From positions 1 through 64,000 of the forward strand of contig NZ_KN360939.1 in the NCBI RefSeq assembly GCF_000784355.1: a stretch of DNA of 64,000 bases, read 5' to 3'. A model generated the notes under the pieces. The model made no database searches. It had not been told where the DNA came from and saw only the letters and a list, made by a program, of their open reading frames with translations. A program made the position numbers and the translations under genes. Below are positions 17,158 through 32,364 of the stretch, piece by piece (within the stretch, counting starts at the first letter, position 1; each line of letters opens with the position of its first letter). This DNA comes from Methanolacinia paynteri. GTDB taxonomy: Archaea; Halobacteriota; Methanomicrobia; Methanomicrobiales; Methanomicrobiaceae.

Positions 17158-17164
17158 TGGTGTG

Positions 17165-17986
17165 CTAATTAGAGCCCCATAGGTTTTGTTTATAATTAAA
17201 TGATTCTTCAGTTTTTGAGTATTTTAAAGAATTTCTTTTTAATTTAGGAGTTCCCGAGTATATTTTCTCACTTTTTTTGTGTAAATTGAAGATATATGGA
17301 TTAAATAACTGCTCAAGAGATTTATCATCTCCATATGTATTTCTTAATGTTTTTATTCTTTTACACAAGCTATCGATTTTTTGGTTAAATACTCTTTTTT
17401 CTTTTTTATTCATACAGTATATTGATTTTGGGCCGATTTCATTTTTAATAATAACAACGTCCTCATCAGATAATTCAAATCTGAGTTTAATTTCAAATAA
17501 AGATTTTAAGAATTCAAGTTCTCTTTGATTTTCTTTTTTTTTCTTTTCAATCTCTTTTGTGGTCTGAATCTCAATTTTTTTCCTGATCTCTCTTATTTCA
17601 TTCTTTTTAGCATATTTAGCTCTAATTTGTTCATAATTTCCGTTCTTCATTTTTTGAGGGTTTTTATAATTATTTGAGGTCTCTTTGTCTTTTGTACTGT
17701 TATTTCTTTGTGGAATGCCTTTTTTTTCAAACAGAAATTGTTTAATTGTTGCGGTTTTTGTAGGTGGTGAATCTTCTAAATTAATTAATTTCAATATTTC
17801 TTTACGATTAGTAATTATCATATTTTGTTCAAGAGGTGAAAATTCATTTAAAAATATTTTTTTTGCAGAACCGTAGATCCCTTTGAAAACCTGATTTCTC
17901 TCTTCCTCTCGTAATTTCCGTTCATTACGCCTTTTATTTTGGTTTTCTTTTATAGCCAATTCTATTTCTTCATCAGACCTAGCCAT
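17165..17986 (-). CDS. lysine-rich unknown protein at island edge
   Basis: I do not recognise this 273-residue protein. It is extremely rich in Lys, Glu, Asn and Ile. A basic, probably coiled N-terminus (about residues 5-40) and a charged helical segment (about 115-165) flank a linker, and the C-terminus (about 170-273) looks like a compact domain with FELSDEDVVIIKNEIG. The gene is far more AT-rich than the ATP synthase genes beside it, which suggests recent transfer. It abuts the methyltransferase/helicase island and may be a DNA-binding accessory or a passenger. Confidence 0.6.
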   Translation of the reverse strand: MARSDEEIELAIKENQNKRRNERKLREEERNQVFKGIYGSAKKIFLNEFSPLEQNMIITNRKEILKLINLEDSPPTKTATIKQFLFEKKGIPQRNNSTKDKETSNNYKNPQKMKNGNYEQIRAKYAKKNEIREIRKKIEIQTTKEIEKKKKENQRELEFLKSLFEIKLRFELSDEDVVIIKNEIGPKSIYCMNKKEKRVFNQKIDSLCKRIKTLRNTYGDDKSLEQLFNPYIFNLHKKSEKIYSGTPKLKRNSLKYSKTEESFNYKQNLWGSN

Positions 17987-18103
17987 TAATTTGAATATGG
18001 AAGGCTTTAATTAATAAATTTTTGAGGTAATGGGTAAGTCTATTATCCAAAATTCTATAAAGATTAATGAAATAACTAAAATCTAGATAAAATACTGATT
18101 ATC

Positions 18104-18517
18104 ATGGCAGATGTTCATACGGCTGAACAACGCAGTCGCAATATGTCAGCAATCCGTGCGAAAAATACAAAACCCGAACTTATTATACGCAGGGGACTCT
18201 ATGCAAGAGGAATTCGTGGATATCGCATTCATCACAATATAGCGGGAAAGCCGGACCTTGTATTTACAAGACAAAAAATTGCAATATTCATAGATGGGTG
18301 TTACTGGCATAAATGTCCAATCTGTTTCCATGAACCACAGACCAACCGGAACTTCTGGATGAAAAAAATTAACGGAAATGTAGAACGGGATCTGCAGGTT
18401 AACGAAGAACTTAAAAAAAATGGCTGGCTTGTCCTCAGGTTCTGGGAACATGAAGTGAGAAAGGAGCAGGAATCTGTTGTTGACAGAATTGCTGAAGCTA
18501 TTAAGAAAAGAAACTAA
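18104..18517 (+). CDS. vsr: very short patch repair (Vsr) endonuclease
   Basis: At 137 residues this matches Vsr, which nicks the T strand at T:G mismatches made by deamination of 5-methylcytosine. Family hallmarks are RSRNMSAIRAKNTKPE at the N-terminus (residues 10-25), the catalytic Asp in GKPDLVF (residue 51), and FIDGCYWHKCP with its His and zinc-type Cys residues (62-72). The C-terminal GWLVLRFWEHEV completes the fold. The convergent cytosine methyltransferase ends 2 bases away and is the obvious partner. In this island Vsr could also be recruited as a defence nuclease. Confidence 0.95.
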   Translation: MADVHTAEQRSRNMSAIRAKNTKPELIIRRGLYARGIRGYRIHHNIAGKPDLVFTRQKIAIFIDGCYWHKCPICFHEPQTNRNFWMKKINGNVERDLQVNEELKKNGWLVLRFWEHEVRKEQESVVDRIAEAIKKRN

Positions 18518-18519
18518 AA

Positions 18520-19785
18520 CTATGCAAGCATTTTTCTGATTTTACCTGCTATTCCCTCAGCCATCAGTGGCGGAACTGCATTACCAATTTGTGTATACTT
18601 CGCCGAACGCGGCCCTTCAAAGAAATAGTCATCAGGGAATGACTGTAAACGAGCTGCTTCACGGACAGTTAAAGAACGGGCCTGTTTAATATCCGGGTGT
18701 ATAAAATAATGACCATCTTTTGCAAGATGTGCCAGAACTGCATGAGAATGATCGTTACCGTTTACAACCTTATACCTATCCAGAAAATCTTTCTTGTTTT
18801 CATGGGTTTGAAGATGTTCAGGGAGTTCATTATATTTTAGTCGTGTACCCTCCCCATGCTTCCATTTCCTTATGGCTCTCCGATAAATTTCTCTATCCCT
18901 TTCGTTATGATATCTTGCAGCATGGTGACGCACTCCCCCAAAACCGTTTCTGATCTTTGCAGCTCTCGCATATTCAGAGCATTCCCCGACATATGGGAGA
19001 AAAATATCCTCATTTGTTTTAACTGCCTGTTGTTTCGGGAGGTCATTCAGAAGATCCCAGACCTTCCCTCTGAGGGACGACTGTTTAAATTCGGGGTAGG
19101 AATAATTAGATCCTTCTTTCCACCCAATAATGATAATACGCTCACGGTTCTGAAGTACACCAAATTTACTGGCATTGATTATTCTTGGTTCAGAGTCAAT
19201 ATGATATCCGGCCATTTTACAACGCAAAAAGATATCCGGGAATATTGTCTGGTCTTTTGCACTGGTAATGCCCTTAACATTTTCAAAAACAAACATTTCT
19301 GGTTCAAATGCCTCCAAAAAACTGATATAGTGTCGGTAGAGATAATTCCGGGGGTCATCCTTCATTCCCTTCTTATCTCGCCCCCTTCCGGCTAGGGAAT
19401 ATGCTTGGCATGGAGGTCCTCCTATAACAATATCAACATCAGTTCTGCCATATTTTTCATAAAGATTTTTTTTAATCGATTCTATTAGTATTTTTTCAGA
19501 TTCATCGTTAATTTCATGTTTGACTATGGAATCTGTTACTATGCTTGGCTCATTAATACCGTCAAATAATTCTTCACGGTTTATTTTTCCCATATAGTAA
19601 TCGGCATAATGAGAAAGATCTTTGTTCTGTTTTAGATAATGATAACAAAGACGTGTTTCCAGTGTCTTTGCTGCATGCTCATTCATTTCAATATGTGCGG
19701 CAAAATCAAATCCCTGACGTATGAATCCCTCTGTAAGGCCCCCACCGCCTGCGAACATATCAAGAGCAATATAATTTTTTTTCAT
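18520..19785 (-). CDS. DNA (cytosine-5)-methyltransferase
   Basis: The 421-residue enzyme has all main C5-methyltransferase motifs: I (DMFAGGGGLTEGF, about 9-21), IV (GGPPCQAYS, catalytic Cys at about 126), VI (FVFENVKGI), VIII (QNRERIIIIGW) and X (QIGNAVPPLMAEGI). It would methylate C in a short palindrome; the target is unknown. It is convergent with vsr and divergent from the helicase operon. In class 2 DISARM a C5 methyltransferase (DrmMII) marks self DNA, and this gene could play that part. A stand-alone Dcm-like or type II modification enzyme is the alternative; no restriction enzyme gene adjoins it. Confidence 0.95.
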   Translation of the reverse strand: MKKNYIALDMFAGGGGLTEGFIRQGFDFAAHIEMNEHAAKTLETRLCYHYLKQNKDLSHYADYYMGKINREELFDGINEPSIVTDSIVKHEINDESEKILIESIKKNLYEKYGRTDVDIVIGGPPCQAYSLAGRGRDKKGMKDDPRNYLYRHYISFLEAFEPEMFVFENVKGITSAKDQTIFPDIFLRCKMAGYHIDSEPRIINASKFGVLQNRERIIIIGWKEGSNYSYPEFKQSSLRGKVWDLLNDLPKQQAVKTNEDIFLPYVGECSEYARAAKIRNGFGGVRHHAARYHNERDREIYRRAIRKWKHGEGTRLKYNELPEHLQTHENKKDFLDRYKVVNGNDHSHAVLAHLAKDGHYFIHPDIKQARSLTVREAARLQSFPDDYFFEGPRSAKYTQIGNAVPPLMAEGIAGKIRKMLA

Positions 19786-19943
19786 AGCAAAATCATTATT
19801 TTTAATCTATTCTTTGCCTGGTTAACTAATAAAGAATGCTTTTTAGATTCTAAATTGGTTAAAAAATTCAATGATTCCTTTTAATGCTAAATATCTTTAA
19901 TTAAGTAAAAAAAGTAAAAACATAATAATTAAAAATGATTATT

Positions 19944-19953
19944 TTTTATAAAA
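19944..19953 (+). promoter_or_regulatory. TATA box of the helicase defence operon
   Basis: TTTTTATAAA lies 20-30 bases before the ATG at 19973, so transcription should start at or within a few bases of the start codon. No ribosome binding site is seen, which fits a leaderless mRNA for the first gene of the operon. Confidence 0.45.
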
Positions 19954-19972
19954 AGTATTGCCGGAAAAATAA

Positions 19973-21856
19973 ATGACAAAAATAGTGGAGACTTGGGATA
20001 AAAGTCAGTTAAAGGTTATTCAGGCACCCAAATCTGAAAGATGTATTATCGATGCAGGGCCAGGTACCGGAAAAACTGCAGTATCCTGTGCCCGTGTTGC
20101 TTGGTTGATCAGTGAAGGAGTCGCACCCGGTAATATCTGGGTTGTCAGTTTTACACGGACAGCAGTCAGGGAAATACGTGATCGTATTCATAGTTATGTC
20201 GGAAACGGAGGAGATGCAAATTCAGTGAAAATTGCAACTTTGGATTCACATGCATGGGCAATCCATTATGGATTTGATGAAACTCCAAAAATATTCAGCT
20301 CTTATGATGAAAATATCGAAGTAATGACCGGGATGGTCAGGTCTGACCCCAGTGTTATCGATTATCTGGAATCTTCATTTGAATATCTTATTATTGATGA
20401 GGCTCAGGATATAGTTGGAATCCGTGCAGATTTGATTCTTGAAATCATTAAAAAATTACCTTTATCATGTGGCGTTTCAGTCTTTGCTGATGAGGCACAG
20501 GCAATATATGGGTGGTCGCTCGAAGATGATGAACCATCTTCCTATGATGCTGTCCAGCTTACACTTCCTCAAAAAATCAGGGAATCCAAACAAAATGAAT
20601 TTAGGGAATACGGTCTGAGTACGGTTTTTCGGACAAGTGATCCAAATCTGAAAACACTTTTTACCGATACACGTAAAAAAGTCTTGGAGGAAGACCCCGA
20701 CGTTAAACTCAAACATAAAAAAATCAAAAAAGAAATTAGAGGTCTTGCTCACTATTCGATATCTGGAAAAATTCAGGATCATGAAATTCAGAATCCCAAT
20801 AAAAGTTTTATTTTATATCGCAGGAGAGCAGATGTGCATTATGCTGCTTCATTTTTCGGGACAAACCCACACCGAATTCGTATGTCGGGCCTGCCGGTCT
20901 GTCTGCATTCATGGATAGGAGCGTGTTTGTCTGAATACACAAAAAGAACAATTGGAAAAAGTGATTTCGTTTCCCTCTGGAAAAGAAATTTTGACAATTC
21001 TGAAAAAGGCTTAAGAAATGCCGATATGATGTGGAATCATCTGATAAGGCATGCGGGGCGGTCAGATAAAATTGTAAATATGGGAAATCTGCAACAGGTT
21101 CTTGGAAGGAAACAACCTCCCTCAGAATTCTGTTATAGCGAAATTGGCTTCAGAGGCCCGATTATCGGTACAATCCACGCATCCAAGGGACGGGAAACAG
21201 ATGAAGTCTGTCTTCTTATTCCGGAAAATCATGGACATAAATTGGATGATGATGAGGAAACACGTGTGGTATTTGTTGGTGCAACTCGTGCAAAATCCCT
21301 GCTTCATGTCGGGTCAGGTTTCGCAACTCTCCACGCCAAAAGACTTCCCGTATCTGGCAGAGCGTATACACTTTTATGTAACCAGGGTTCGCCTACGGCA
21401 CAGGTAGAGATTGGAAGAGATGGTGATATTACCGCGAGTGGAATTACCGGAACTAGTCACTATTCCTCAATTGATGATGTACGGAAAAAACAGGAGCTGA
21501 TCCTTAGTCTTCGGGGAAAGATCACGCCAGCGTATGCCGTATCTGATCATGGAAGTGGACATATTTACAGGTTGAAATCAGGAGAATTCTCATATGGTAA
21601 AGATGTCTGCTGCCTGTCACAATCCGTGAATTCAGATTTGTTTGAAGTAGGCAAGGAGATTCATACAATTCTCGGTGGAGGAAAACGGCGTCCACCTGAT
21701 GAGCTAAGGTATCTTCGGATTTATGGAACACGAACACTTGTACTCCCACCTGATTCTTCCGAACGTGGAAAGTTATTTGAACCATGGTCGGAGAGTGGGA
21801 TTATGCTGGCACCGGTAGTCCTAGGTTATCCTAAGGCATTTTTCAAGTATTATTAA
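19973..21856 (+). CDS. UvrD/Rep-like SF1 helicase
   Basis: The 627-residue protein is an SF1A DNA helicase. Motif I is AGPGTGKTA (about residue 27), Ia VVSFTRTAV, II IIDEAQD (about 141), V GTIHASKGRETDEV (about 401) and VI VVFVGATRAKSL (about 433). The motor ends near residue 460. The last ~165 residues, beginning after the Tyr/Thr-rich segment, form an extra domain of unknown fold without nuclease motifs I can see. It is the first gene of a four-gene operon with DrmA- and DrmB-like genes (11-base gap). SF1 helicases are not core DISARM parts, so this is a distinguishing component. Confidence 0.9.
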   Translation: MTKIVETWDKSQLKVIQAPKSERCIIDAGPGTGKTAVSCARVAWLISEGVAPGNIWVVSFTRTAVREIRDRIHSYVGNGGDANSVKIATLDSHAWAIHYGFDETPKIFSSYDENIEVMTGMVRSDPSVIDYLESSFEYLIIDEAQDIVGIRADLILEIIKKLPLSCGVSVFADEAQAIYGWSLEDDEPSSYDAVQLTLPQKIRESKQNEFREYGLSTVFRTSDPNLKTLFTDTRKKVLEEDPDVKLKHKKIKKEIRGLAHYSISGKIQDHEIQNPNKSFILYRRRADVHYAASFFGTNPHRIRMSGLPVCLHSWIGACLSEYTKRTIGKSDFVSLWKRNFDNSEKGLRNADMMWNHLIRHAGRSDKIVNMGNLQQVLGRKQPPSEFCYSEIGFRGPIIGTIHASKGRETDEVCLLIPENHGHKLDDDEETRVVFVGATRAKSLLHVGSGFATLHAKRLPVSGRAYTLLCNQGSPTAQVEIGRDGDITASGITGTSHYSSIDDVRKKQELILSLRGKITPAYAVSDHGSGHIYRLKSGEFSYGKDVCCLSQSVNSDLFEVGKEIHTILGGGKRRPPDELRYLRIYGTRTLVLPPDSSERGKLFEPWSESGIMLAPVVLGYPKAFFKYY

Positions 21857-21867
21857 CGGAGCTGATT

Positions 21868-24800
21868 ATGACGGTAACAGAGCGAAAAAAAATAATTGAA
21901 AGATTATCTGAGGATCTTGTTGGTCCGTACAAAGAAGATGAAAAACTGGAATCCAGACCCTCAGATGTATATATATCCGGGATTCTCTGGCCAAAGGATA
22001 CACGCATAGGTCCGGAGGAAGATGATCAACTTGGTCTGGCATCGGCCGGTTTTGACAACGAGGAATCTGCCGGAACAGGTGAGGAAGAAGAGATCGCAGT
22101 ATCATCCATAAACCGGCCAAGTAGTGCAGGATTGTCGTTTGCTGTTGCATCAAATAAGGAAATACCTAAAATAGCTGCAAAAGTCTTTTTTGCCACCTAT
22201 TCATATCAGAATGTCCAAACAGATGAAGAAGAGGATAATTCAGATGGGAATAAAGCAGAAAAAAGGAAAAAATCAAAAATCGAATGGATCCGTCACCAAC
22301 ATAAAATTGACATTCTTCATATCGAAGTTCCGGACGGCGGAAACAATATCATTGAAATTGAAGATCCCGATTTACTACCTAGAATTCAGCTCCATATCCG
22401 ATCAGTCCACTGGAAAGAAAAACACTGGCTTGTCACAGCGACACTAATAAACAAGAGCGAACCCCCACAGGGAACTGGCAGAAACGATCGGGAGTTATTT
22501 TCTTTATTTCAGGTTCGTCTTGAAATACGTCCGGAATCAGGCACATCACTTGTAGCCCGGCCATCCCGACGGGCGGTAACCGGAAACTCCGATGATGATG
22601 AAGACCTCTCCACAGCACTTCTTTATCGTAATGCACTAGAATATGCCACTGGCCACACATCTTCTGCAGAATGGGAGTCAGGATCGGATCCCGGAACCGC
22701 ATCGATGGTTGCTACTACATGGATTCCCCACGCCTTTTTACCCTCCTTCAGTTCAGAAGGTCATAATATATTTAGTTCACTCAGGTCCTCGGAAACACCC
22801 GGGCCGTTATCTGCAGAATGGCTTTCTGATGCCTCTGACGCTGAACTAGGGCAGGCACTGGATGAAATACCAAATGCTTATGCCAGATGGATTGCTCTTC
22901 AGGAAGAGAAAATAAATATACTCTCTCCTCCCTTTGGTGAACAGGCAAAACGGAACATTGCACGCTGTCGGCAATCACTGCAAAGAATGCATCAGGGAGC
23001 TGAACTTATTGGTAGCAATCCCGCTGTCGCTGAAGCATTCAGACTTGCAAACAGAGCTATGGAATTACAGTATCAATGGAATACTGAAAATCCCGGCGAA
23101 ATCCTGACATGGCGACCGTTTCAGATGGGATTTATTCTTCTTGCCGTCAGTTCTGTTGCAGATCGTTCCCATCCGGATCGCAACGTAATGGATCTGCTCT
23201 GGTTCCCTACTGGCGGAGGGAAAACAGAGGCCTATTTGGGACTGATTGCATTTCTTGCATTTTACAGAAGATTGTCTTCTCCCTCAAATCCTGATGAAGG
23301 TGCAGGGGTTGCGGCGTTAATGAGATATACGCTCCGGCTACTCACAACCCAACAATTTATCCGTGCATCTTCGATGATTCTTGCATGTGATGCAATTCGC
23401 CGTGGGCAAGCAGGCAAAGTGTCTGGCACTGATAAATTAGGTGATACGCCTTTTTCGATTGGGCTTTGGGTTGGTGGAGAGGCTACACCCAACAAATTCA
23501 GGATTGCAAGGGATTCTCTAGAAGGAACACCGGGTCTCGCAACTCCAAAACAGTTAAAAATATGCCCTGCATGTAAATCAGCACTTAAATGGACCTTTGA
23601 TGACTCCACTGAAAAAATTGAAGTAAGATGTCCTGATACAGAATGTATCCTTCATAATGGCGGAAATCCGTTGCCGGTATATACGGTTGATGATGACATT
23701 TACAGGAGCCAGCCAACACTCCTGATAGGTACTATCGATAAGTTTGCACAAATACTTCGTCGGAAGGAAGTGAGCCATCTTTTTTCGCTGAAAGAAGGAA
23801 GAAAACCTGATCTGATCATTCAGGATGAACTACATCTGATTTCGGGGCCTCTTGGTACCTTGGCTGGCCTTTATGAAACTGCCATTGATCAGTTGTTCAC
23901 GCAGAATGGAATCCGGCCGAAAATTATCGGATCAACAGCAACTATTCGCAGAGCTCGTGATCAGGTCAATGCTCTGTTCAACCGTGAAACCTGTCAATTC
24001 CCTCCTGCAGCTATTGATGCTGACGATTCGGGTTTTGCTATTGTGGATAAAGATGCACCGGGACGTGTCTATCTGGGTGTAACAACCGCAGGAAGATCAG
24101 CAAAATACAGTCTGCAGGCTGTCAGTGCATCCCTGTTACAGTCTGTTGAAGGAGGCCTCGAAGATCCGTACAGGGATTATTACTGGACTCTTGTATCATA
24201 TTTCAACTCACTCAGGGAATTAGGCGGTGCAGTTGTCCTGATGCGGGATGACGTAAATGATACCATTTCCATGATTGCCGCACGGAGACATGAGCGTCAG
24301 CGGGAACCAGAAGATCAGGAAGAACTGACCTCCATGCGCACACAGGAAGAAGTTCGTGAAATGCTTGAACTTCTGGAAAGAAAAGCGGACAGCGGGGAAG
24401 CGATCGATGTTGTTCTGGCAACAAATATGCTGAGTGTTGGTGTTGATATTAAAAGGTTGGGTTTGATGCTTGTGAATGGTCAGCCAAAGGGCATATCCGA
24501 ATATATTCAGGCAACAAGCCGTGTCGGTCGTGGCACGGTTCCGGGACTGATCGTCGCACTATTAAACAACGCAAAGGCCCGTGACCGGTCACATTATGAA
24601 TCCTTTGGGACGTGGCATAACACTCTCTACCGTGATGTGGAGGCAACCAGTGTTACTCCGTTTGCGTCCCGTGCACGTGATCGGGCACTACATGCAGTCT
24701 TAGTCGCACTTCTGCGTTACAATGCACCGGGAATGTTGGATCAGCCAATAATCAGTGAGGATGACCTCAGAACTGCTGATGATATGATTTCATATATTAC

Positions 24801-25080
24801 TGAACGTGCCCGAAAGGTTGATCCGGAAGAATCTGCGATTGGTTATGAACTTCAGGATTATCTTGACACTTGGCAGATCCGCCAGCCCAGAGCTTACTGG
24901 GATTCACGTAAGCCAAGCCAGTCATTATTGCAGGATGCCGAAAAAGCTGCAACACTGAAGGCCCTTGGTTATCATATCGGTAACGCTTGGCCAACAATGA
25001 ACAATATGCGAAGTGTAGAACCTTCAACGCCATTTCGGCTAAAGGAAAAGCTGAAGGATTTTTCTAGGGATGGTGATTAG
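21868..25080 (+). CDS. DrmA-like SF2 helicase (DISARM core helicase family)
   Basis: This 1070-residue protein has the DrmA layout: a long N-terminal region (about 1-430), then a split SF2 helicase. Motif I is PTGGGKTEAYLG (about 446), II IIQDELHLISG (about 649), III GSTATIRRA, and the second RecA lobe has ATNMLSVGVDIKRLG (about 850) and QATSRVGRG (about 880). A zinc-ribbon insertion, CPAC at about 565 and CPDTEC at about 587, lies between motifs I and II. DrmA is the DISARM helicase that with DrmB recognises and acts on invading DNA. The next gene overlaps by 11 bases. The pairing of DrmA with a DUF1998 partner is the strongest evidence for a DISARM-like system. Confidence 0.85.
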   Translation: MTVTERKKIIERLSEDLVGPYKEDEKLESRPSDVYISGILWPKDTRIGPEEDDQLGLASAGFDNEESAGTGEEEEIAVSSINRPSSAGLSFAVASNKEIPKIAAKVFFATYSYQNVQTDEEEDNSDGNKAEKRKKSKIEWIRHQHKIDILHIEVPDGGNNIIEIEDPDLLPRIQLHIRSVHWKEKHWLVTATLINKSEPPQGTGRNDRELFSLFQVRLEIRPESGTSLVARPSRRAVTGNSDDDEDLSTALLYRNALEYATGHTSSAEWESGSDPGTASMVATTWIPHAFLPSFSSEGHNIFSSLRSSETPGPLSAEWLSDASDAELGQALDEIPNAYARWIALQEEKINILSPPFGEQAKRNIARCRQSLQRMHQGAELIGSNPAVAEAFRLANRAMELQYQWNTENPGEILTWRPFQMGFILLAVSSVADRSHPDRNVMDLLWFPTGGGKTEAYLGLIAFLAFYRRLSSPSNPDEGAGVAALMRYTLRLLTTQQFIRASSMILACDAIRRGQAGKVSGTDKLGDTPFSIGLWVGGEATPNKFRIARDSLEGTPGLATPKQLKICPACKSALKWTFDDSTEKIEVRCPDTECILHNGGNPLPVYTVDDDIYRSQPTLLIGTIDKFAQILRRKEVSHLFSLKEGRKPDLIIQDELHLISGPLGTLAGLYETAIDQLFTQNGIRPKIIGSTATIRRARDQVNALFNRETCQFPPAAIDADDSGFAIVDKDAPGRVYLGVTTAGRSAKYSLQAVSASLLQSVEGGLEDPYRDYYWTLVSYFNSLRELGGAVVLMRDDVNDTISMIAARRHERQREPEDQEELTSMRTQEEVREMLELLERKADSGEAIDVVLATNMLSVGVDIKRLGLMLVNGQPKGISEYIQATSRVGRGTVPGLIVALLNNAKARDRSHYESFGTWHNTLYRDVEATSVTPFASRARDRALHAVLVALLRYNAPGMLDQPIISEDDLRTADDMISYITERARKVDPEESAIGYELQDYLDTWQIRQPRAYWDSRKPSQSLLQDAEKAATLKALGYHIGNAWPTMNNMRSVEPSTPFRLKEKLKDFSRDGD

Positions 25081-26938
25081 AATGGTAAACAATGATCTGG
25101 GTAAGCTGCGAAGAAGTATGGTTGTGATGACGCATGCCCCGGGAGCGATTGTCGATTTTCGTGCAGATGGTGCTCCGGTTTCAGGTGTTGTTGCAGGACT
25201 TGAAGAATGGGATCGTAATTTCCCTCCTTATGGTCTTACGAATCCACAGAAGATATCAGAACCGCGTCTTGAAAAAAGACTTGGAGTCGGGGGATTTCGC
25301 CTGCCACCTGTCGTCGATGAAGGTTATCGTGATGAAAGCGGTAGACCGGACGGGCGCCGCCTTGTTGCAGTTCGGTTTCCCAAATGGCTTCAGTGTCCGG
25401 AATGTGAACGAATCGCTCCTTTCTGGAAATGGAATAATGATCCCGGCAGGGCATATCGATACTGTCCAAACTGCTCATCCGGACGAAAAAAGGTATTCGT
25501 GATACCTGTGCGTTTTATTATGGCCTGTGAAAGCGGACACATTCAGGATTTTCCTTGGCACAGGTGGGTTGGGCACAAGGACAGTTGCAGCTGGAATAAG
25601 AATCATCATCGTGGATTCCTCAAACTGCATTATGAACGACCCGGTCTGGCAGGATTGTATGTTAGTTGTCCGGAATGTGGTGCATCACGTTCAATGGACG
25701 GTATCTTTAATCCAGATACTATGATGGGAGTAACAAATTGTTATGGGAAAAGACCGTGGCTGAGTGGACCTGATCAGAACTGCACCAAACAGCCAATTAC
25801 TCTTCAGAGAGGTGCATCAAACCTTTATTTCCCTGTTCTTGAATCTGCACTGAGTATTCCTCCCTGGACAGACCGGTTACAGTCAGCACTTGGAATATAT
25901 TGGAGCTCTATTGTTGGAACAGAAGACCCTTCTGAACGTGCTTTATATATTCGGATTCTTGCACGTAAGGATTTAAAACAGGTTCTGGGAGAGTTTCATA
26001 TGACACCTGAAGAGCTTGCAGACCAGATCGAAGAACGGTTATCAAGATACTCTGAGGATACTGATCCTGATATCAGACAGGAGGAATACCGTCAGTTAAC
26101 ATCCGGGACAAATACAAGTCGTGAGGATGACCGTGAATTCGAAATGCGGAATATTAATATTCCGAATTCTCTATCCTCATATTTCAGCCATATAGTTCGA
26201 GTAGTGAGGCTTCGGGAAGTCCGTGCATTAAGGGGCTTCACACGAATTAATCCACCTGGGGGATCTGATGATCAGGTAATCTCTCCTATATTCAGCGAAG
26301 ACCTCCACTGGCTGCCGGCAATTGAAGTTAGGGGAGAAGGAATATTTCTGGAGTTTGAAAAAAAAGCTCTGCTAAAATGGGAAAAAAACAGGGATAATAT
26401 TGAGCGTGCGGATAAGGTGAATAATCCGTGGTTGCAGGAATGGAGAAAACGTTATGGTGCGGAAAGTAACCCCCCTGCTAAAATTACACCCCGATATTTG
26501 CTGGTTCATACCTTTGCTCATGCCCTGATGCGTCAGCTGACGCTTGACTGCGGATATTCTAGCGCCTCCCTGCGGGAGCGGTTATATATCAGTGAGGGAA
26601 AGACTGGTATGGCCGGAGTTCTGATCTATACTGCAACATCTGATTCGGACGGAACCCTTGGGGGACTGCAGCGTCAGGGAACTCCCGGGAGGATCGAGGA
26701 TGCTGTACGGTCTGCGATTCAAAGTATGGAGTGGTGTTCATCGGATCCGCTGTGTATTCATAATCAGGAATTATCCGATGCGTCGGAAAACCATTTTAAT
26801 CTCGCAGCTTGTCATGCCTGCTGTCTGGCACCTGAGACCTCATGTGAAACATATAACCGTTTCCTAGATCGGGCAACACTAATAGGAATACCTGAGAAAC
26901 TTGGGACCGGTTATTTTACCCAGTTACTGAAAAGGTAA
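25070..26938 (+). CDS. DrmB-like DUF1998 domain protein
   Basis: The 622-residue protein fits DrmB. It has N-terminal zinc knuckles (CPEC at about 108, CPNC at about 131) followed by FIMACESGHIQDFPWHRW (about 148-165). The DUF1998 core has LLVHTFAHALMRQL (about 478-491), and a Cys-rich end has CHACCLAPETSCETYN (about 581-596). In DISARM, DrmB binds DrmA and the complex loads on DNA ends. The frame starts at 25070, overlapping drmA by 11 bases; an alternative ATG at 25082 also follows a GGTGAT ribosome site. It is 4 bases from the NERD-helicase gene. Confidence 0.85.
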   Translation: MVIRMVNNDLGKLRRSMVVMTHAPGAIVDFRADGAPVSGVVAGLEEWDRNFPPYGLTNPQKISEPRLEKRLGVGGFRLPPVVDEGYRDESGRPDGRRLVAVRFPKWLQCPECERIAPFWKWNNDPGRAYRYCPNCSSGRKKVFVIPVRFIMACESGHIQDFPWHRWVGHKDSCSWNKNHHRGFLKLHYERPGLAGLYVSCPECGASRSMDGIFNPDTMMGVTNCYGKRPWLSGPDQNCTKQPITLQRGASNLYFPVLESALSIPPWTDRLQSALGIYWSSIVGTEDPSERALYIRILARKDLKQVLGEFHMTPEELADQIEERLSRYSEDTDPDIRQEEYRQLTSGTNTSREDDREFEMRNINIPNSLSSYFSHIVRVVRLREVRALRGFTRINPPGGSDDQVISPIFSEDLHWLPAIEVRGEGIFLEFEKKALLKWEKNRDNIERADKVNNPWLQEWRKRYGAESNPPAKITPRYLLVHTFAHALMRQLTLDCGYSSASLRERLYISEGKTGMAGVLIYTATSDSDGTLGGLQRQGTPGRIEDAVRSAIQSMEWCSSDPLCIHNQELSDASENHFNLAACHACCLAPETSCETYNRFLDRATLIGIPEKLGTGYFTQLLKR

Positions 26939-26942
26939 ATTA

Positions 26943-28640
26943 ATGGTTGTAATGTGGCCTAAGAGGCTTCCAAATCATATAACCCATAACAGCCTAAGAG
27001 CTGCCGAGTGTAAAGTGTTCCGTCGTCTCGAAGAGGTACTTGAAGATCCGTTCGTTGTTTTTTATTCACGCCCTTGGCTGGGGGAAAGACCCAATGGGGA
27101 AGAAATTGACGGTGAATGTGATTTTATCGTTGCTCATCCGGATCTTGGTTTTCTTGCCTTGGAAGTAAAAGGAGGTGGGATATTATACAATGCTGCTCTT
27201 GATAAATGGACCAGTAAAGATCGTTATAATATCACTCATTTTATCAAGAATCCTGTAGGACAGGCAAGAACTTCAAAACACCAGATTATTAAAAAACTGA
27301 ATGAATCAAGAGAATGGAGTCCCAGATGGATCAGAGCACGTCACGGGATAATTTTTCCGGATTGTGCAGCAACCGAAGAAAATCTAGCAGCGGATATTCC
27401 AAGGGATATGGTCTGTTATCTGGAGGATATTGAAGGAGATTTTCGTTCATGGATTGTAAAACGTATGGGTTCAGAGGTTCCTCTGAGTTCCCGTGAATAT
27501 CCCCTCGGAGAAGACGGAATTCTGGCACTTGAAAAACTTCTGGCATATCCTTTTCATCTCCATGTTCCCCTGAGAAAACTTCTTGATGAAGATGATCAAA
27601 AAATCAGAATTCTTACTCAGCAACAATACCATCTTCTTTCTGCAATTGAAGCAATTCCTAAAGCAGCAATAGCAGGAGGGGCAGGGACCGGAAAAACGAT
27701 CCTTGCAATGGAGGAAGCAAAACGGTGTGCTGATTCAGGCTTGAGGGTTTTACTTACCTGTTATAACAATCCACTTGCACAGCACATGAAAGTACAGCTT
27801 GAGCAGGAAAAAAATATACATGTTGCAACATTTCATAAGTTGTGTCACCATACAGCAGACCTTGCGGGTATCAGAATTCCTGCAGGCGCAAATAGTGAAA
27901 GATTATTTAAGGAAATATATCCGGCAATCTTAATCAAAGCAATGGAAATACTTCCTGACATCAGATATGATGTCATTATTGTTGACGAAGGTCAGGATTT
28001 CATTAAAAATTGGTGGCAAGCTTTGGATATGGCACTTGATCCATCAGGTAAAAAGCTGATGAGAGTGTTTTATGACTGCAATCAGGAAGTATATGGAAGT
28101 ACCGATTATCTCTCATCTGAATTTGAGATGGTTCCAATCCATCTTCGGGAAAATATGCGAAATTCTCGTCCTGTTCATCAGCTGGCCATGAAATATTATA
28201 ATGGTTATCCGGTTGAAAGTATCGGACCAGAAGGTATTGAACCAGAATGGCATGTATGTGATTCATTCAGCGATATCCGGCAGAAATTATATTCTGACAT
28301 AAACCGTCTGATTTCTGGAGAAAAGGTAATGCCCGGAAATATTGCAGTTCTGATCAGCTCAGAAAAAATACTTGATCGGTTAGTCAATAGAGGAAAAATA
28401 GGATCAATTTCCTGTAATCTCTGTTCAGACCCTTCAGATGACAAGATTATTCTTGATACCATACGTCGGTTCAAGGGACTGGAGAGTCAGATCGTATATC
28501 TGATTATTACTGGGGATATTGTAATGGATAAAGAATTAATCTATGTTGCCCTTTCCAGAGCCAGATCACGGCTGGTACTTCTCGGTGACAAAGCAAGTCT
28601 TGAAAGAATCAGAAATTATCGGAAACATAATCCTGAATAA
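26943..28640 (+). CDS. NERD nuclease-related domain fused to UvrD-like helicase
   Basis: The 565-residue protein begins with a NERD domain (about residues 15-190): EEIDGECDFIV at about 52-62 and ALEVKGGG at about 71-78 form the expected restriction-endonuclease-like D-ExK core, followed by a conserved QARTSKHQI stretch. A UvrD/Rep-type SF1 motor follows: motif I GGAGTGKTI (about 243), II IIVDEGQDF (about 345) and late FKGLESQIVYLI and YVALSRARSRLV. It is the last gene of the operon, 4 bases after the DrmB-like gene. It could supply the nuclease that DrmC (phospholipase D fold) gives canonical DISARM. The alternative is an unlinked repair helicase. Confidence 0.9.
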   Translation: MVVMWPKRLPNHITHNSLRAAECKVFRRLEEVLEDPFVVFYSRPWLGERPNGEEIDGECDFIVAHPDLGFLALEVKGGGILYNAALDKWTSKDRYNITHFIKNPVGQARTSKHQIIKKLNESREWSPRWIRARHGIIFPDCAATEENLAADIPRDMVCYLEDIEGDFRSWIVKRMGSEVPLSSREYPLGEDGILALEKLLAYPFHLHVPLRKLLDEDDQKIRILTQQQYHLLSAIEAIPKAAIAGGAGTGKTILAMEEAKRCADSGLRVLLTCYNNPLAQHMKVQLEQEKNIHVATFHKLCHHTADLAGIRIPAGANSERLFKEIYPAILIKAMEILPDIRYDVIIVDEGQDFIKNWWQALDMALDPSGKKLMRVFYDCNQEVYGSTDYLSSEFEMVPIHLRENMRNSRPVHQLAMKYYNGYPVESIGPEGIEPEWHVCDSFSDIRQKLYSDINRLISGEKVMPGNIAVLISSEKILDRLVNRGKIGSISCNLCSDPSDDKIILDTIRRFKGLESQIVYLIITGDIVMDKELIYVALSRARSRLVLLGDKASLERIRNYRKHNPE

Positions 28641-28660
28641 AAATTCTGATTATATTTAGA

Positions 28661-28800
28661 AATTTCCCCGAACCTCCTCCAACCACAAATTAAACTTCGC
28701 ATCAAACTCCTTCCTCCGGGCAATATCTTTAATGGTATATCTCCTCCTCGCCCTTTTGTATAACTCCTGCCTTTCCCTTGGGACTCGTGGACGATCACGA
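28661..28800 (-). pseudogene. decayed C-terminal fragment of a transglutaminase-like gene
   Basis: On the minus strand one frame reads ERQELYKRARRRYTIKDIA then RRKEFD and FNLWLEEVRGNF-stop, clearly related to the last ~45 residues of the transglutaminase-like protein at 36964-37623 (ELHRKVRRQYTPEDFARR and LNLWLEEIRR). An IVHES match upstream is in a different frame, so the remnant is frameshifted. No start or catalytic part remains. It fills most of the 215-base gap between the NERD helicase and hicB. Confidence 0.6.
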
Positions 28801-28819
28801 CAACATTCGTTCAAACCAC

Positions 28820-28828
28820 ATTTATAAA
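28820..28828 (+). promoter_or_regulatory. TATA box of hicBA
   Basis: ATTTATAAA lies 28-36 bases before the hicB ATG, predicting transcription start only about 5 bases before the codon. No ribosome site is present, so the antitoxin is probably read from a near-leaderless mRNA. Confidence 0.45.
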
Positions 28829-28855
28829 TCTCAAAAAATCAAATAGAAAATTAAC

Positions 28856-29059
28856 ATGCAGTTACAGGTCATCATAAGACCAGGGGAAGACGGCTGGTTT
28901 GTCGCAGAAGTTCCTGCTCTTCCGGGTTGCGTCTCACAGGGCAAAACAGAGGATGAAGCACTCGCAAATATAAAAGAAGCCATAGAACTTTACCTTGAGC
29001 CCGATGACGACGTGCTTAATATTCCCGGCAAGGCGAGAGTCGTCGAGGTCACGGTATGA
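28856..29059 (+). CDS. hicB: HicB-like antitoxin, short form
   Basis: The 67-residue protein has the HicB partial RNase H-like fold: GWFVAEVPALPGCVSQGKT (about residues 13-31), then a helix EDEALANIKEAIELYL. In HicAB systems HicB binds and inhibits the HicA mRNase. This short form lacks the C-terminal helix-turn-helix or ribbon-helix-helix, so it probably cannot autorepress by itself. Its TGA overlaps the hicA ATG by 4 bases (ATGA). Order is antitoxin first, unlike the classic hicA-hicB order. Confidence 0.88.
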   Translation: MQLQVIIRPGEDGWFVAEVPALPGCVSQGKTEDEALANIKEAIELYLEPDDDVLNIPGKARVVEVTV

Positions 29060-29283
29060 CAGGTTTGCCTGTCATATCCGGAAAAGATCTAATTAAAATT
29101 CTGGTCAAAGAGGGTTTTGTCGTAAACCGCCAGAAAGGAAGCCATGTTCGTCTGGCTAAAATGACAGATGACGGAAAGATAACGGTGACGGTTCCTCTCC
29201 ATGATGAACTGGACAGGGGAACGTTGATCTCAATTTTAAAAGGTGCTGAAATAACCAAAGAAGAATTTCTGGATCTGATCTGA
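29056..29283 (+). CDS. hicA: HicA-like mRNA interferase toxin
   Basis: The 75-residue protein has the dsRBD-like HicA fold with the active-site His in QKGSHVRLAK (His at about residue 30), followed by a VTVPLHDELDRGTLISILK segment that is the family signature. HicA cleaves mRNA independently of the ribosome. It is coupled to hicB by a 4-base overlap. The pair sits directly beside the DISARM-like island, a common place for toxin-antitoxin modules. Confidence 0.92.
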   Translation: MTGLPVISGKDLIKILVKEGFVVNRQKGSHVRLAKMTDDGKITVTVPLHDELDRGTLISILKGAEITKEEFLDLI

Positions 29284-29354
29284 AAGAAATTAAATGCAGA
29301 ATTCCAAAGCATGATCATTCATGTTCACCAGTTTAAATTTGGAATTTTTCAAAA

Positions 29355-30401
29355 TCAGCCATTAATCATCTCCGGTTCCCGGTATTCGCCGAGGATGTTT
29401 GTAAGCGGCCCCCCGAAAAGCTCGACCGCTCGCGATCTGCTGATCTTTTCCTCTGCCTGGGCACGGAGGATTAAAAGTTCCATGTGAATCGGTCTTTCAC
29501 TGGGGAATTCTTTCCCCGGTTCATTTTTATTCCAGCCTTTCTTTGAGAATAATCTGTAGTAACTTACTGCAACATTCCGGTTGATTATATTGAGATCGGA
29601 TGCACGGTGAATCAGGGCCATCATGCTTATCCCGTATTTGTGCTTCAGTCTGTAGAGTTCGTTGATATCGAGAGACTTTCTCTTCTCCATCAATTCATAT
29701 TTTATCATCTCTTTGGGAATGAGGAACGCACCTGCAAACCTGTTCGCTGCTGCTTCTTTATCGATTTTGGGATTTAAATCAAGGATGATGTGTCCGAGTT
29801 CATGTGCCAGGTTGAATCTCTGCTGGTCGCCCGGAATATTTTTTGCGATTGCGATAACCGGGCTTCTTTCGTACATTAAGGTTAATGCATCGAATTTTTT
29901 ATCGGCATCTATGAGACCCACTTTTATTCCGTGCATCTCAAAACTGTCGATCAGGTTTTCGATCGGATCCAGCCCGAGATTCCAGTGCCTGCGAATTTTT
30001 ACTGCGATTGATTCGATGTCATCCGGTGAATCAGCATGTCGGTCTGCCTTATCTGGCAGATCGGTTTCGATCCTCTCGTTACTGAGATGTTCAATCTCAA
30101 GATATCTTTCGAGCCAGTCGGAAGTTCTTGCATGGATTACATCTTTTTCTTTCTGGCCGATACTCTTTCTGCACCTGTAGCACGGTTCCGCCAGTTCGAC
30201 AGTATTCTGCCTGAAAAAGTAGTCAAGAGTGGTGTTGGTAGCATTGCCAATCTTTATCAACATACCGGAATCGGGAATGATCTCACCTTTTTCATATTTC
30301 GATATGGCAGTCTGTGAAACGCCGGTTTTATCGCCCAGTGCTCTCAGGCTCAGCCCTGAACCTTTCCGGGCCGCTTTTATTCTCTCGCCTATCTGATTCA
30401 T
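29355..30401 (-). CDS. XRE-family HTH and ImmA/IrrE metallopeptidase fusion
   Basis: An N-terminal XRE helix-turn-helix (about residues 1-55 from MNQIGERIKAARK; GVSQTAISKYEKGE is the recognition region) is followed by a CYRC..C-containing linker. The ImmA/IrrE zinc peptidase domain has HELGHIILD (about residue 205) and a helical C-terminus. Such proteins bind operators and cleave partner regulators to induce mobile-element or stress genes. The frame is open from a GTG at 30413, but the ATG at 30401 gives the normal XRE N-terminus and follows a GGAG, so I chose it. Two TTTACAAA-type sites lie just upstream and probably mediate autoregulation. It is convergent with hicBA. Confidence 0.88.
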   Translation of the reverse strand: MNQIGERIKAARKGSGLSLRALGDKTGVSQTAISKYEKGEIIPDSGMLIKIGNATNTTLDYFFRQNTVELAEPCYRCRKSIGQKEKDVIHARTSDWLERYLEIEHLSNERIETDLPDKADRHADSPDDIESIAVKIRRHWNLGLDPIENLIDSFEMHGIKVGLIDADKKFDALTLMYERSPVIAIAKNIPGDQQRFNLAHELGHIILDLNPKIDKEAAANRFAGAFLIPKEMIKYELMEKRKSLDINELYRLKHKYGISMMALIHRASDLNIINRNVAVSYYRLFSKKGWNKNEPGKEFPSERPIHMELLILRAQAEEKISRSRAVELFGGPLTNILGEYREPEMING

Positions 30402-30413
30402 CTCCACACACAC

Positions 30414-30455
30414 ACGGTTTACAAACCGTAACTTTTAGTATGTTTTGTAAACTAA
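30414..30455. promoter_or_regulatory. two-site operator upstream of the XRE-ImmA gene
   Basis: Site one is ACGGTTTACAAACCGT (30414-30429), two 7-base arms around AC. Site two (30435-30455) has outer arms TTAGT and ACTAA around TTTGTAAA, the reverse complement of the TTTACAAA core of site one. They lie 13-54 bases before the chosen ATG. This is the expected layout for an XRE autorepressor. Confidence 0.5.
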
Positions 30456-30550
30456 TAAGGGTTGTTGTAGTATCTATGTAGGATATCCATATGGAAATAG
30501 GATAATCTAACTCTCGATTTTTACTAAAAGCAATTTTTTTCAATCTCCCC

Positions 30551-30769
30551 TCAAATCCTCTCACTCGTCTCCTCAATAATCTCCCTCATCGTCTTCGCAA
30601 TCACAGCAGGATCAGTCTTCTTCGGGAATACAAATCCCAGTCTTCCGCCTTCGAACCAGTCTGGTTCCCAGACAATTTCCCGCTCAGGATAATTTTTGGA
30701 AAGATCGTTTTTGATGGAGCCCCCATTTTCAGGATCATGGATCTTTGTTTTTTTTGTTCCTTTCATCAT
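30551..30769 (-). CDS. small unknown protein (72 residues)
   Basis: A soluble charged protein that starts MMKGTKKTKIHDPENGGS and ends MREIIEETSERI. I do not recognise it. It overlaps the upstream membrane protein gene by 35 bases on the same strand, so it is probably co-transcribed. The amino-acid composition is protein-like (central WEPDWFEGGRLGFVFPKK), but support is only moderate. Confidence 0.4.
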   Translation of the reverse strand: MMKGTKKTKIHDPENGGSIKNDLSKNYPEREIVWEPDWFEGGRLGFVFPKKTDPAVIAKTMREIIEETSERI

Positions 30770-31391
30770 TCTCTTTTTCTTTTCTTTTGAAGATCCAAAA
30801 AGAAACGATAATGGAAATTAAAATAAGCATCACGATTAAACCCGGTATACCGTATAGGAGAAATGCACCCAATGCTATGATTAACAGGGCTAAAATATCT
30901 CTTGAAAGATAGTCTCCGGATTCCAGGTTTCTTAGTGAAATAAAAAGCGATCTTTTCACCTGTCCGCTCTCTCTAAAAAATTCATCAGGATTATAAAACC
31001 GTGAGACTATGATATGCCCTGTGAGGACAACCAGAGGGATCACTAAAAAGATTATCATGAATTCGTTATATGAACCTAATCCTTTGCTTAATTCCTGAAC
31101 AGTCTCCGCAGAATCGATAAACTTGAAACCGAAAAAGAGGATCGATAAAAGCGAAATTATCAAAATACTCCTGGGGTACCTGTACAGGATATATGCGAGA
31201 ATGGCAGAGATAAAAAAGTACGTGAACAGTATTACACCTGCATACAGCCCGTCCATTTTCATTCCGAAAAACCAGGCTTCCCAATTGAGTATGAACATGA
31301 AAATATACATTAATGAATTTAAAATTAAAATTCCGAGCAGGCTGTAATAGAATATCCGATCAAGGTTCTTTGCTGCTCTATAAAGATTCAT
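30735..31391 (-). CDS. unknown polytopic membrane protein, 218 residues
   Basis: I do not recognise the family. About six hydrophobic segments are visible (roughly residues 12-35, 42-62, 68-85, 105-128, 158-180 and 185-205) with a short Lys/Asn-rich tail. An Asn/Pro-containing cytoplasmic loop, SRFYNPDEFFRESGQVKRS, lies between segments 4 and 5. It sits in the run of small orphan membrane and secreted genes at 30.5-40.4 kb. Confidence 0.6.
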   Translation of the reverse strand: MNLYRAAKNLDRIFYYSLLGILILNSLMYIFMFILNWEAWFFGMKMDGLYAGVILFTYFFISAILAYILYRYPRSILIISLLSILFFGFKFIDSAETVQELSKGLGSYNEFMIIFLVIPLVVLTGHIIVSRFYNPDEFFRESGQVKRSLFISLRNLESGDYLSRDILALLIIALGAFLLYGIPGLIVMLILISIIVSFWIFKRKEKENDERNKKNKDP

Positions 31392-31425
31392 TAGGTATCA
31401 TTTCTCCCTTTTGAATTAAAAAAAA

Positions 31426-32364
31426 TTAGGAGTAATAGTGTGGTATCTTATCCATGTTTGAATTCCGGTCATCCAGACTCATGGCATGATTCCATACATT
31501 ACTGATATAGATCTCGTCACCAACATCCCACGATGTCACTAATGCACCATGTTGTCCATAGGTTTCTGCGTATGAGTACCCGTTATCGTAATCATTTCCA
31601 AATTCGATATCGCGATCTCCTAATGAATCGGGATCATATATAAAGAACCCCTGACGATCATTAAGCGTATGGTAAATTGCTAGGCGGAGTGCATCATAGC
31701 TTAGATCTAAGTCTGGATTAGGGGCATCTTCATCACTGAAAAGACACTCATAAAGATCTTTTCCATTATACACCGTATCGACAGACACCTCTAAAAGAAC
31801 ATTGTCACCTCTGACTTCGTAAGGTAATCCTGACCCATCAATACCTATACCTCCGGTTACATCATCTTCAACCTGAATAAGGATAAGAGAAAGGGGGAGA
31901 CTTTTTACATTTTGTGTCATTGGATCTATCTTAGTTGGAGTAAGTGCCCTGAAATCATCATCTTTTACTCCCATTTTTTTCTTAAATTCATCCCAGGCTA
32001 CTCTTTCGATATGTTCCTGGACGATAATTCGTTTTAGATCTTCACTTTGCTCTTCTGATAATTCCTTTCCGGTTTCTTTTTTAAGAGAATCGATGATCAG
32101 ATCCAGATTTTTCTGATATTTCTTCATCAATTCTTCAGAATATTTGTCGGAATTAAAGTCTGTTTTTGCAAGTCCGTTGGTTGTGACGGTTTCTGCCATC
32201 TTACTTACTATCTCATCATTTAATGGTTCAAATAATGCGACAATGTCGTTATTGTCGACGATTTGTTCCTTTTCATCAGCACTAACGACCGGAACGAAGA
32301 TCGCACCGGCGAGTGCCACTACCAATAGCAGGATTAAAGCCTGCATACCGAATTTCGTTTTCAT
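31426..32364 (-). CDS. secreted unknown protein with signal peptide
   Basis: I chose the ATG at 32364 because GGTGAG lies 3 bases before it and it begins a normal Sec signal peptide, MKTKFGMQALILLLVVALAG, cut after VSA. A longer frame to 32412 has no purpose. The mature ~285 residues have a charged helical N-part (about 30-150) and a C-terminal Asp/Tyr-rich domain with GGIGIDGSGLPYEVRGDN and repeated DNGYSYAETYGQHGA-like turns. I recognise no family. It is probably exported to the cell surface. Confidence 0.65.
   Translation of the reverse strand: MKTKFGMQALILLLVVALAGAIFVPVVSADEKEQIVDNNDIVALFEPLNDEIVSKMAETVTTNGLAKTDFNSDKYSEELMKKYQKNLDLIIDSLKKETGKELSEEQSEDLKRIIVQEHIERVAWDEFKKKMGVKDDDFRALTPTKIDPMTQNVKSLPLSLILIQVEDDVTGGIGIDGSGLPYEVRGDNVLLEVSVDTVYNGKDLYECLFSDEDAPNPDLDLSYDALRLAIYHTLNDRQGFFIYDPDSLGDRDIEFGNDYDNGYSYAETYGQHGALVTSWDVGDEIYISNVWNHAMSLDDRNSNMDKIPHYYS

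Follow-up and report, generated by a model that had tools for sequence, protein, structure and literature searches.

Which kind of system is encoded by the six-gene locus that we analysed in the methanogen Methanolacinia paynteri, whose genome carries two mcrA genes? The window under study comprises 64,000 nt (NZ_KN360939.1 positions 1-64,000, assembly GCF_000784355.1; coordinates below are in window numbering). A preliminary description had noted a vsr gene, a cytosine-5 (C5) DNA methyltransferase gene, and an operon for a UvrD-like helicase, DrmA-like and DrmB-like proteins and a NERD-domain helicase, and had proposed a DISARM-related variant with its own effector. All six genes were found where it had placed them (Table 1), as were the gap of 11 bases between uvrD and drmA, the 11-base overlap of drmA and drmB, and the 4-base gap between drmB and the NERD-helicase gene. 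We consider it probable that this locus represents a DISARM-family antiviral subtype apart from classes 1 and 2, built of a uvrD-drmA-drmB-nerd core and an exchangeable DrmMII-Vsr module, and acting by the mechanism proposed below.

The assignment to DISARM rests on DrmA and DrmB. In a search of the entire PDB with their profiles, nothing matched by sequence except DrmA (7s9v_A) and DrmB (7s9v_B) of the solved DISARM structure. V1050 of the window DrmA, which is invariant in six relatives, aligns to V1296 of Serratia DrmA; that valine contacts a DNA base, and defence is lost or strongly weakened when it is mutated (PMC9142583). Since the only structural database matches are the solved DISARM proteins and the base-contacting valine is kept, we regard both proteins as genuine DrmA and DrmB. 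PADLOC and NCBIfam matches likewise place them inside the DISARM families, which upholds the DISARM-related variant proposed earlier, with a true DrmA and a true DrmB. Against the NCBIfam model NF038325 (DISARM_DrmAS), DrmA scored 919.8 bits, slightly below the model cut-off of 950. An acidic low-complexity stretch at about residues 48-80 of DrmA lies near the Serratia trigger-loop region (176-232), with the phmmer alignment starting only at residue 68 (equivalent to 214), and Pfam and PADLOC scans found no nuclease domain in DrmA. Because DrmA and DrmB match DISARM strongly, we rejected a plain Type II restriction-modification locus.

We scored membership of the DISARM family feature by feature (DrmA, DrmB, a DrmM-type methylase, DrmC and the trigger loop). 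The locus is a member by its DrmA, DrmB and DrmM, and lacks DrmC; it belongs to neither class 1 nor class 2. In agreement with the absences reported earlier, PADLOC and Pfam profile scans of the locus retrieved no match to DrmC, DrmD or DrmE, nor to the SNF2 DrmD and the adenine methylase DrmMI of class 1, and the DrmE_C domain had no match anywhere in the genome. The C5 methyltransferase had been recognised as such in the preliminary description, which overlooked that it is of the DISARM type: its best PADLOC model is DrmMII PDLC02649 (572 bits over 418/422 positions; Pfam PF00145, 201 bits).

Table 1. Genes and neighbouring features of the DISARM-family locus, in window coordinates
Feature	Position	Strand	Evidence
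Variable spot between archaeal ATPase operon and conserved sequence	17159..32269	.	blastn synteny with G001
Open reading frame, 273 aa	17165..17986		no family match
vsr, T:G mismatch endonuclease, 137 aa	18104..18517	+	TIGR00632 143.6 bits (cut-off 97.85)
DrmMII-type cytosine-5 DNA methyltransferase, 421 aa	18520..19785	-	PADLOC DrmMII + PF00145
UvrD/Rep-like superfamily 1 (SF1) helicase, 627 aa, core operon gene 1	19973..21856	+	PF00580 89 bits
drmA, superfamily 2 (SF2) YprA-family DISARM helicase, 1070 aa	21868..25080	+	PADLOC DrmA 705 bits
drmB, DUF1998/MZB protein, 622 aa	25070..26938	+	NF038324 513 bits (cut-off 240)
NERD nuclease-SF1 helicase fusion, 565 aa, in drmC slot, candidate effector	26943..28640	+	PF08378 (NERD) 35.9 bits (cut-off 22.1)
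HicB-like antitoxin and HicA toxin pair	28856..29283

Besides the window, the order uvrD-drmA-drmB-nerd occurs in 13 further loci of archaea and bacteria, which answers the earlier question of whether it recurs in other genomes and makes it more than a chance arrangement. These loci belong to two archaea of the same family as the host (L024, L025); Lysobacter defluvii, a Kiloniellaceae metagenome-assembled genome (MAG) and Chromobacterium sinusclupearum (L021-L023); plasmids of Rhizobium rhizogenes (NZ_MK318970.1), Azospirillum, Rhizobium ruizarguesonis and Shinella (L033-L035, L068); two more genomes found by way of the bacterial search centres (L069, L078); and a pair of IMG/VR contigs (L048, L049). 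In nearly all of them the spacing between the four genes ranges from overlap to about 30 bases, and RefSeq annotates the plasmid copies with domain-level names only. Finding these four genes together again in unrelated bacteria suggests a subtype that is real and mobile. In one copy, drmB is split by an IS21-type insertion with an IstB match (L078:8095-10853).

The window DrmA is closer to that of the Kiloniellaceae MAG (58% identity) than to those of the archaeal family members (55%), a pattern that fits a transfer of the system between domains. Strong matches were found in 3/295 genomes of the host's phylum, 2/399 Pseudomonadota and 2/385 genomes of a second bacterial class sample, counts that include the search centres; the system is rare and widely spread. 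Pairwise identities of DrmA correlate with those of DrmB (r = 0.89), the NERD-helicase (r = 0.88) and UvrD (r = 0.88; permutation p = 0.0005 each), and correlations among all four core genes range from 0.72 to 0.89.

Phylogeny sets these loci apart from the known classes. We built two DrmA trees, one of 60 proteins labelled by their neighbouring genes and a careful one of 43. Nearly all DrmA proteins from uvrD+nerd loci (13/14, window included) group in a fully supported clade of 16 members (bootstrap/Shimodaira-Hasegawa approximate likelihood ratio test 100/100), the IMG/VR locus L049 being the sole one outside. The remaining three clade members are L045, whose contig ends before the NERD slot, L047, which holds DrmC, and L053, in which an unrecognised 418-aa gene occupies the slot. 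Class 1 DrmA proteins, accompanied by DrmD and an adenine methylase, form a separate clade (100/100), and the archaeal class 2 loci with DrmE and DrmC (L028-L030) lie on a different branch. The neighbours of the uvrD+nerd clade differ between the trees: groups with an upstream NERD gene or an AAA gene in the first, and class 1, with weak support, in the second. A different DrmAB lineage, represented on Photobacterium plasmids among other places (L039, L044, L059, L071), has the order drmA-drmB, SF1-like AAA ATPase, conserved unknown protein, and its loci lack DrmC, DrmD and DrmE.

In the window, the slot after drmB where the DRMC profile had no match is taken by the NERD-helicase, which combines a NERD domain with SF1 helicase motifs. 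All of 18 NERD-helicases share residues E58, D60, E74, V75 and K76, the lysine and threonine of the P-loop, and the DE-QD motif without variation, as expected of a working PD-(D/E)xK nuclease joined to a motor. Among the fold matches of the AlphaFold model (mean predicted local distance difference test score, pLDDT, 85.3) are Schlafen nuclease-helicases, UvrD and Dna2, at low template modelling scores; the first structure prediction was run without plasmid rows. Inside the clade, L047 carries a phospholipase D (PLD)-type DrmC 2 bases after drmB, in the same place where the others carry NERD. On this positional evidence the NERD nuclease-helicase is a probable replacement for DrmC, and it most likely displaced DrmC, with the direction left unsettled by the tree; an effector role may be inferred for it. 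On a second DISARM branch, L061:6876-13867 encodes class-2-like DrmA and DrmB followed by a NERD-helicase in the DrmC slot, possibly an independent replacement.

The case is different for the UvrD-like helicase. Its Walker motifs are invariant and its predicted structure (pLDDT 85.9) has UvrD and PcrA as best PDB fold matches. We rejected the notion that it is a hidden DrmE, since hhalign gave a probability of 0.1% between the UvrD family and DrmE. The earlier proposal that the two helicases replace the missing parts thus holds for NERD in the DrmC slot, where L047 backs it; for UvrD in place of DrmE or DrmD it holds by gene position only, as there is no DrmE homology and more distant UvrD relatives occur alongside DrmC (L063) or with a DrmD-like helicase and an adenine methylase (L036). 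One of these more distant loci, the archaeal L063, has the order uvrD-drmA-drmB-drmC, so a UvrD-like gene ahead of drmA may predate the NERD gene. In L024:10822-15822, UvrD is fused to an N-terminal SF2 helicase part matching PADLOC PbeA, giving a 1666-aa protein before drmA.

Several observations weigh against our main reading or limit it. NERD-helicases are not unique to the uvrD-drmA-drmB core, since they lie upstream of drmA in L037, L050, L070, L072, L080 and L082 and are found in other defence contexts (PADLOC RTasNERD-Hel, 205 bits, and C3a187, 123 bits). PLD proteins are encoded elsewhere in the host genome. DrmC is dispensable in the tested DISARM and often missing (PMC9142583), and by analogy NERD may be an accessory too. 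The correlations among the core genes show joint inheritance and not contact, because shared ancestry alone yields such correlations. Finally, no C5 methylase was found in the fetched stretches of L021, L025, L034 and L069, so methylation is not the sole safeguard against self-attack. As to the two PADLOC families, the likeness is a NERD plus SF1 helicase architecture that is homologous over nearly the full length, and the difference is that theirs is tied to reverse transcriptases or unassigned loci whereas that of the window is tied to drmAB. The loci with a NERD-helicase before drmA (L050, L070, L072, L080, L082), often with a C5 methylase, may be a further DISARM variant.

Some of these points would also suit an ordinary DISARM, in which DrmAB does the work and the UvrD and NERD-helicases are optional modules acquired from other defence systems, making the locus a mosaic such as DISARM is already known to form and no separate class. 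The modularity of DISARM (PMC9142583), the presence of DrmC or another gene in the NERD slot of L047 and L053, and the upstream position of NERD-helicases in other lineages are all in its favour. We nevertheless find it unlikely, since both genes are held by 13/16 clade members (L045 being cut by its contig end) in fixed order and at near-zero spacing, and the divergence of UvrD and NERD tracks that of DrmA across archaea and bacteria.

The methylase and Vsr behave differently from the core. Vsr, which aligns with E. coli Vsr (PDB 1cw0) over residues 2-131, accompanies C5 methylases across 61 DISARM loci (14/30 of those with a C5 methylase vs 2/31 of the others; Fisher p = 0.0004), and the identities of methylase and Vsr show no significant correlation with those of DrmA (r = 0.09, n = 7 loci). 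Given this tie to C5 methylases, and a divergence that fails to follow that of the core, we take Vsr for a probable partner of the methylase, not a defining part; the same tie makes Vsr unlikely as the effector. The simplest reading is a four-gene core plus an exchangeable methylase-Vsr module. One could go further and see two adjacent systems, the four-gene core and an unrelated Vsr and C5 methylase pair left from orphan methylation or restriction-modification: the methylase is on the opposite strand, the pair and the core do not diverge in step, C5 methylases are not seen near several of the core loci, and such pairs are common in other systems (PMC2292703). We think this quite unlikely, given that the methylase has DISARM DrmMII as its best family match and that many clade members, bacterial and archaeal alike, have a C5 methylase no more than about 10 kb away. 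In L024, a MORC/MutL-like HATPase (L024:1899-3422) lies beside vsr and the C5 methylase, an arrangement known from restriction systems described in PMC2292703.

The genomic surroundings bear on whether the locus serves defence at all. A same-genus genome (G001) matches the window at 97.6% up to position 17158, right after the ATPase operon, and the match resumes at 32270 (blastn). The 15.1 kb insert of the window corresponds to 5.8 kb in G001 that carries IetAS, a known defence pair (L084:5135-8717; 1004 and 489 bits), and a further genome, G002, has about 1.9 kb of other genes in the same spot. This site, which lies downstream of the archaeal ATPase operon, is a variable hotspot used by defence genes. 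The G+C content of the core is 44%, as against 50.5% upstream. A search for terminal repeats, direct or inverted, that would flank an integrated element gave no convincing candidates, and the boundaries that we claim are those of the synteny break only. A non-defensive role, as a DNA repair operon comparable to MrfAB, might be argued from the membership of the repair protein MrfA among YprA-family helicases (PMC12458937) and from the action of UvrD and Vsr as repair proteins elsewhere. We consider it highly improbable: the locus is rare and patchy (as the above counts for the phylum and the Pseudomonadota show), its relatives are found on plasmids and IMG/VR contigs, it sits in a variable spot, occupied in the sister genome by IetAS, and its methylase is of the DrmMII type.

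Within the insert, a HicB-like antitoxin and HicA toxin pair lies between the NERD gene and a gene for a helix-turn-helix (HTH-M78) protein, and HicB is found also in the corresponding spot of G001 (L084:8949-9152). The open reading frame preceding vsr has about 26% G+C and encodes a lysine/asparagine-rich protein, of which a partial relative (30% over 70 residues) is found near the L024 copy.

How does the locus compare with described systems? With DISARM class 2 (drmE, drmA, drmB, drmC, drmMII) it shares DrmA, DrmB, a DrmMII-type methylase and one extra gene before drmA, and Vsr is present in the archaeal class 2 relatives L029 and L030 as well; it differs in having UvrD for DrmE, without homology, and a NERD nuclease-helicase for DrmC, and in the separate branch of its DrmA from L028-L030. 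With class 1 (drmD, drmMI, drmA, drmB, drmC; 7s9v/7s9w) it shares DrmA and DrmB with the base-contacting valine, but lacks SNF2 DrmD, the PglX-like adenine methylase and DrmC, and its DrmA is outside the class 1 clade. TALON (PMC12458937), found mainly in Chloroflexota, also combines a YprA-family helicase with a NERD-type nuclease; its ARMADA-like YprA, however, is fused to an inactive RNase H domain and accompanied by TPR-CSD and TBP genes, whereas the YprA protein of the window is DrmA with a separate DrmB, and its NERD is fused to a helicase. ARMADA types I and II (PMC12458937) share the YprA helicase, and type II ends in a UvrD/GajB-like helicase gene, but the ARMADA YprA has a C-terminal Vsr domain and occurs with a BrxHII-like helicase and a PglX-like methylase; the window locus lacks all three, and its Vsr is a separate gene. 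Both systems were rejected on gene content, as Pfam and PADLOC scans of the locus revealed neither an RNase H fold YprA, TPR-CSD or TBP nor a PglX-like methylase or BrxHII gene.

The preliminary description had left room for a match to a catalogued type, and none is described in the searchable literature. Full-text searches for DISARM together with NERD, UvrD or class 3 gave no description of the set, the original DISARM paper and the supplements of PMC12458937 being outside the search; that 2025 YprA-family paper ascribes a PLD nuclease to DISARM and mentions NERD for TALON alone. We conclude that the locus is a real and recurrent DISARM variant, apparently an uncharacterised one.

For such a variant we propose the following mechanism. 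In DISARM, DrmAB binds single-stranded DNA with 5' overhangs, is restrained by a loop, and is less active on methylated DNA (PMC9142583). By homology, the DrmA-DrmB complex of the window would be held back by a loop, load on single-stranded DNA with a 5' overhang and be less active on methylated DNA. The NERD-helicase, a putative PD-(D/E)xK nuclease with an SF1 motor in place of DrmC, would degrade the DNA loaded with DrmAB, and the UvrD-like helicase might generate or lengthen the single-stranded substrate, or strip proteins off it. The cytosine methylase would place a self mark on host DNA, and Vsr would repair the T:G mismatches that arise from 5-methylcytosine deamination at methylase sites. 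A bolder version, which we hold only tentatively, is that of a third DISARM class common to methanogens and Pseudomonadota, with the NERD nuclease-helicase as an essential effector and the UvrD motor as its essential partner; if true, the nuclease step missing from DISARM would be found there.

The way in which DISARM breaks down incoming DNA is an open question, since DrmC, the presumed nuclease, can be dispensed with and is often absent (PMC9142583). A lineage that has a motor-fused nuclease in the DrmC slot, diverging in step with DrmA and DrmB, bears on whether DISARM needs a dedicated nuclease, and L047, a member of the clade with DrmC in this slot, is the natural swap counterpart to the NERD loci.

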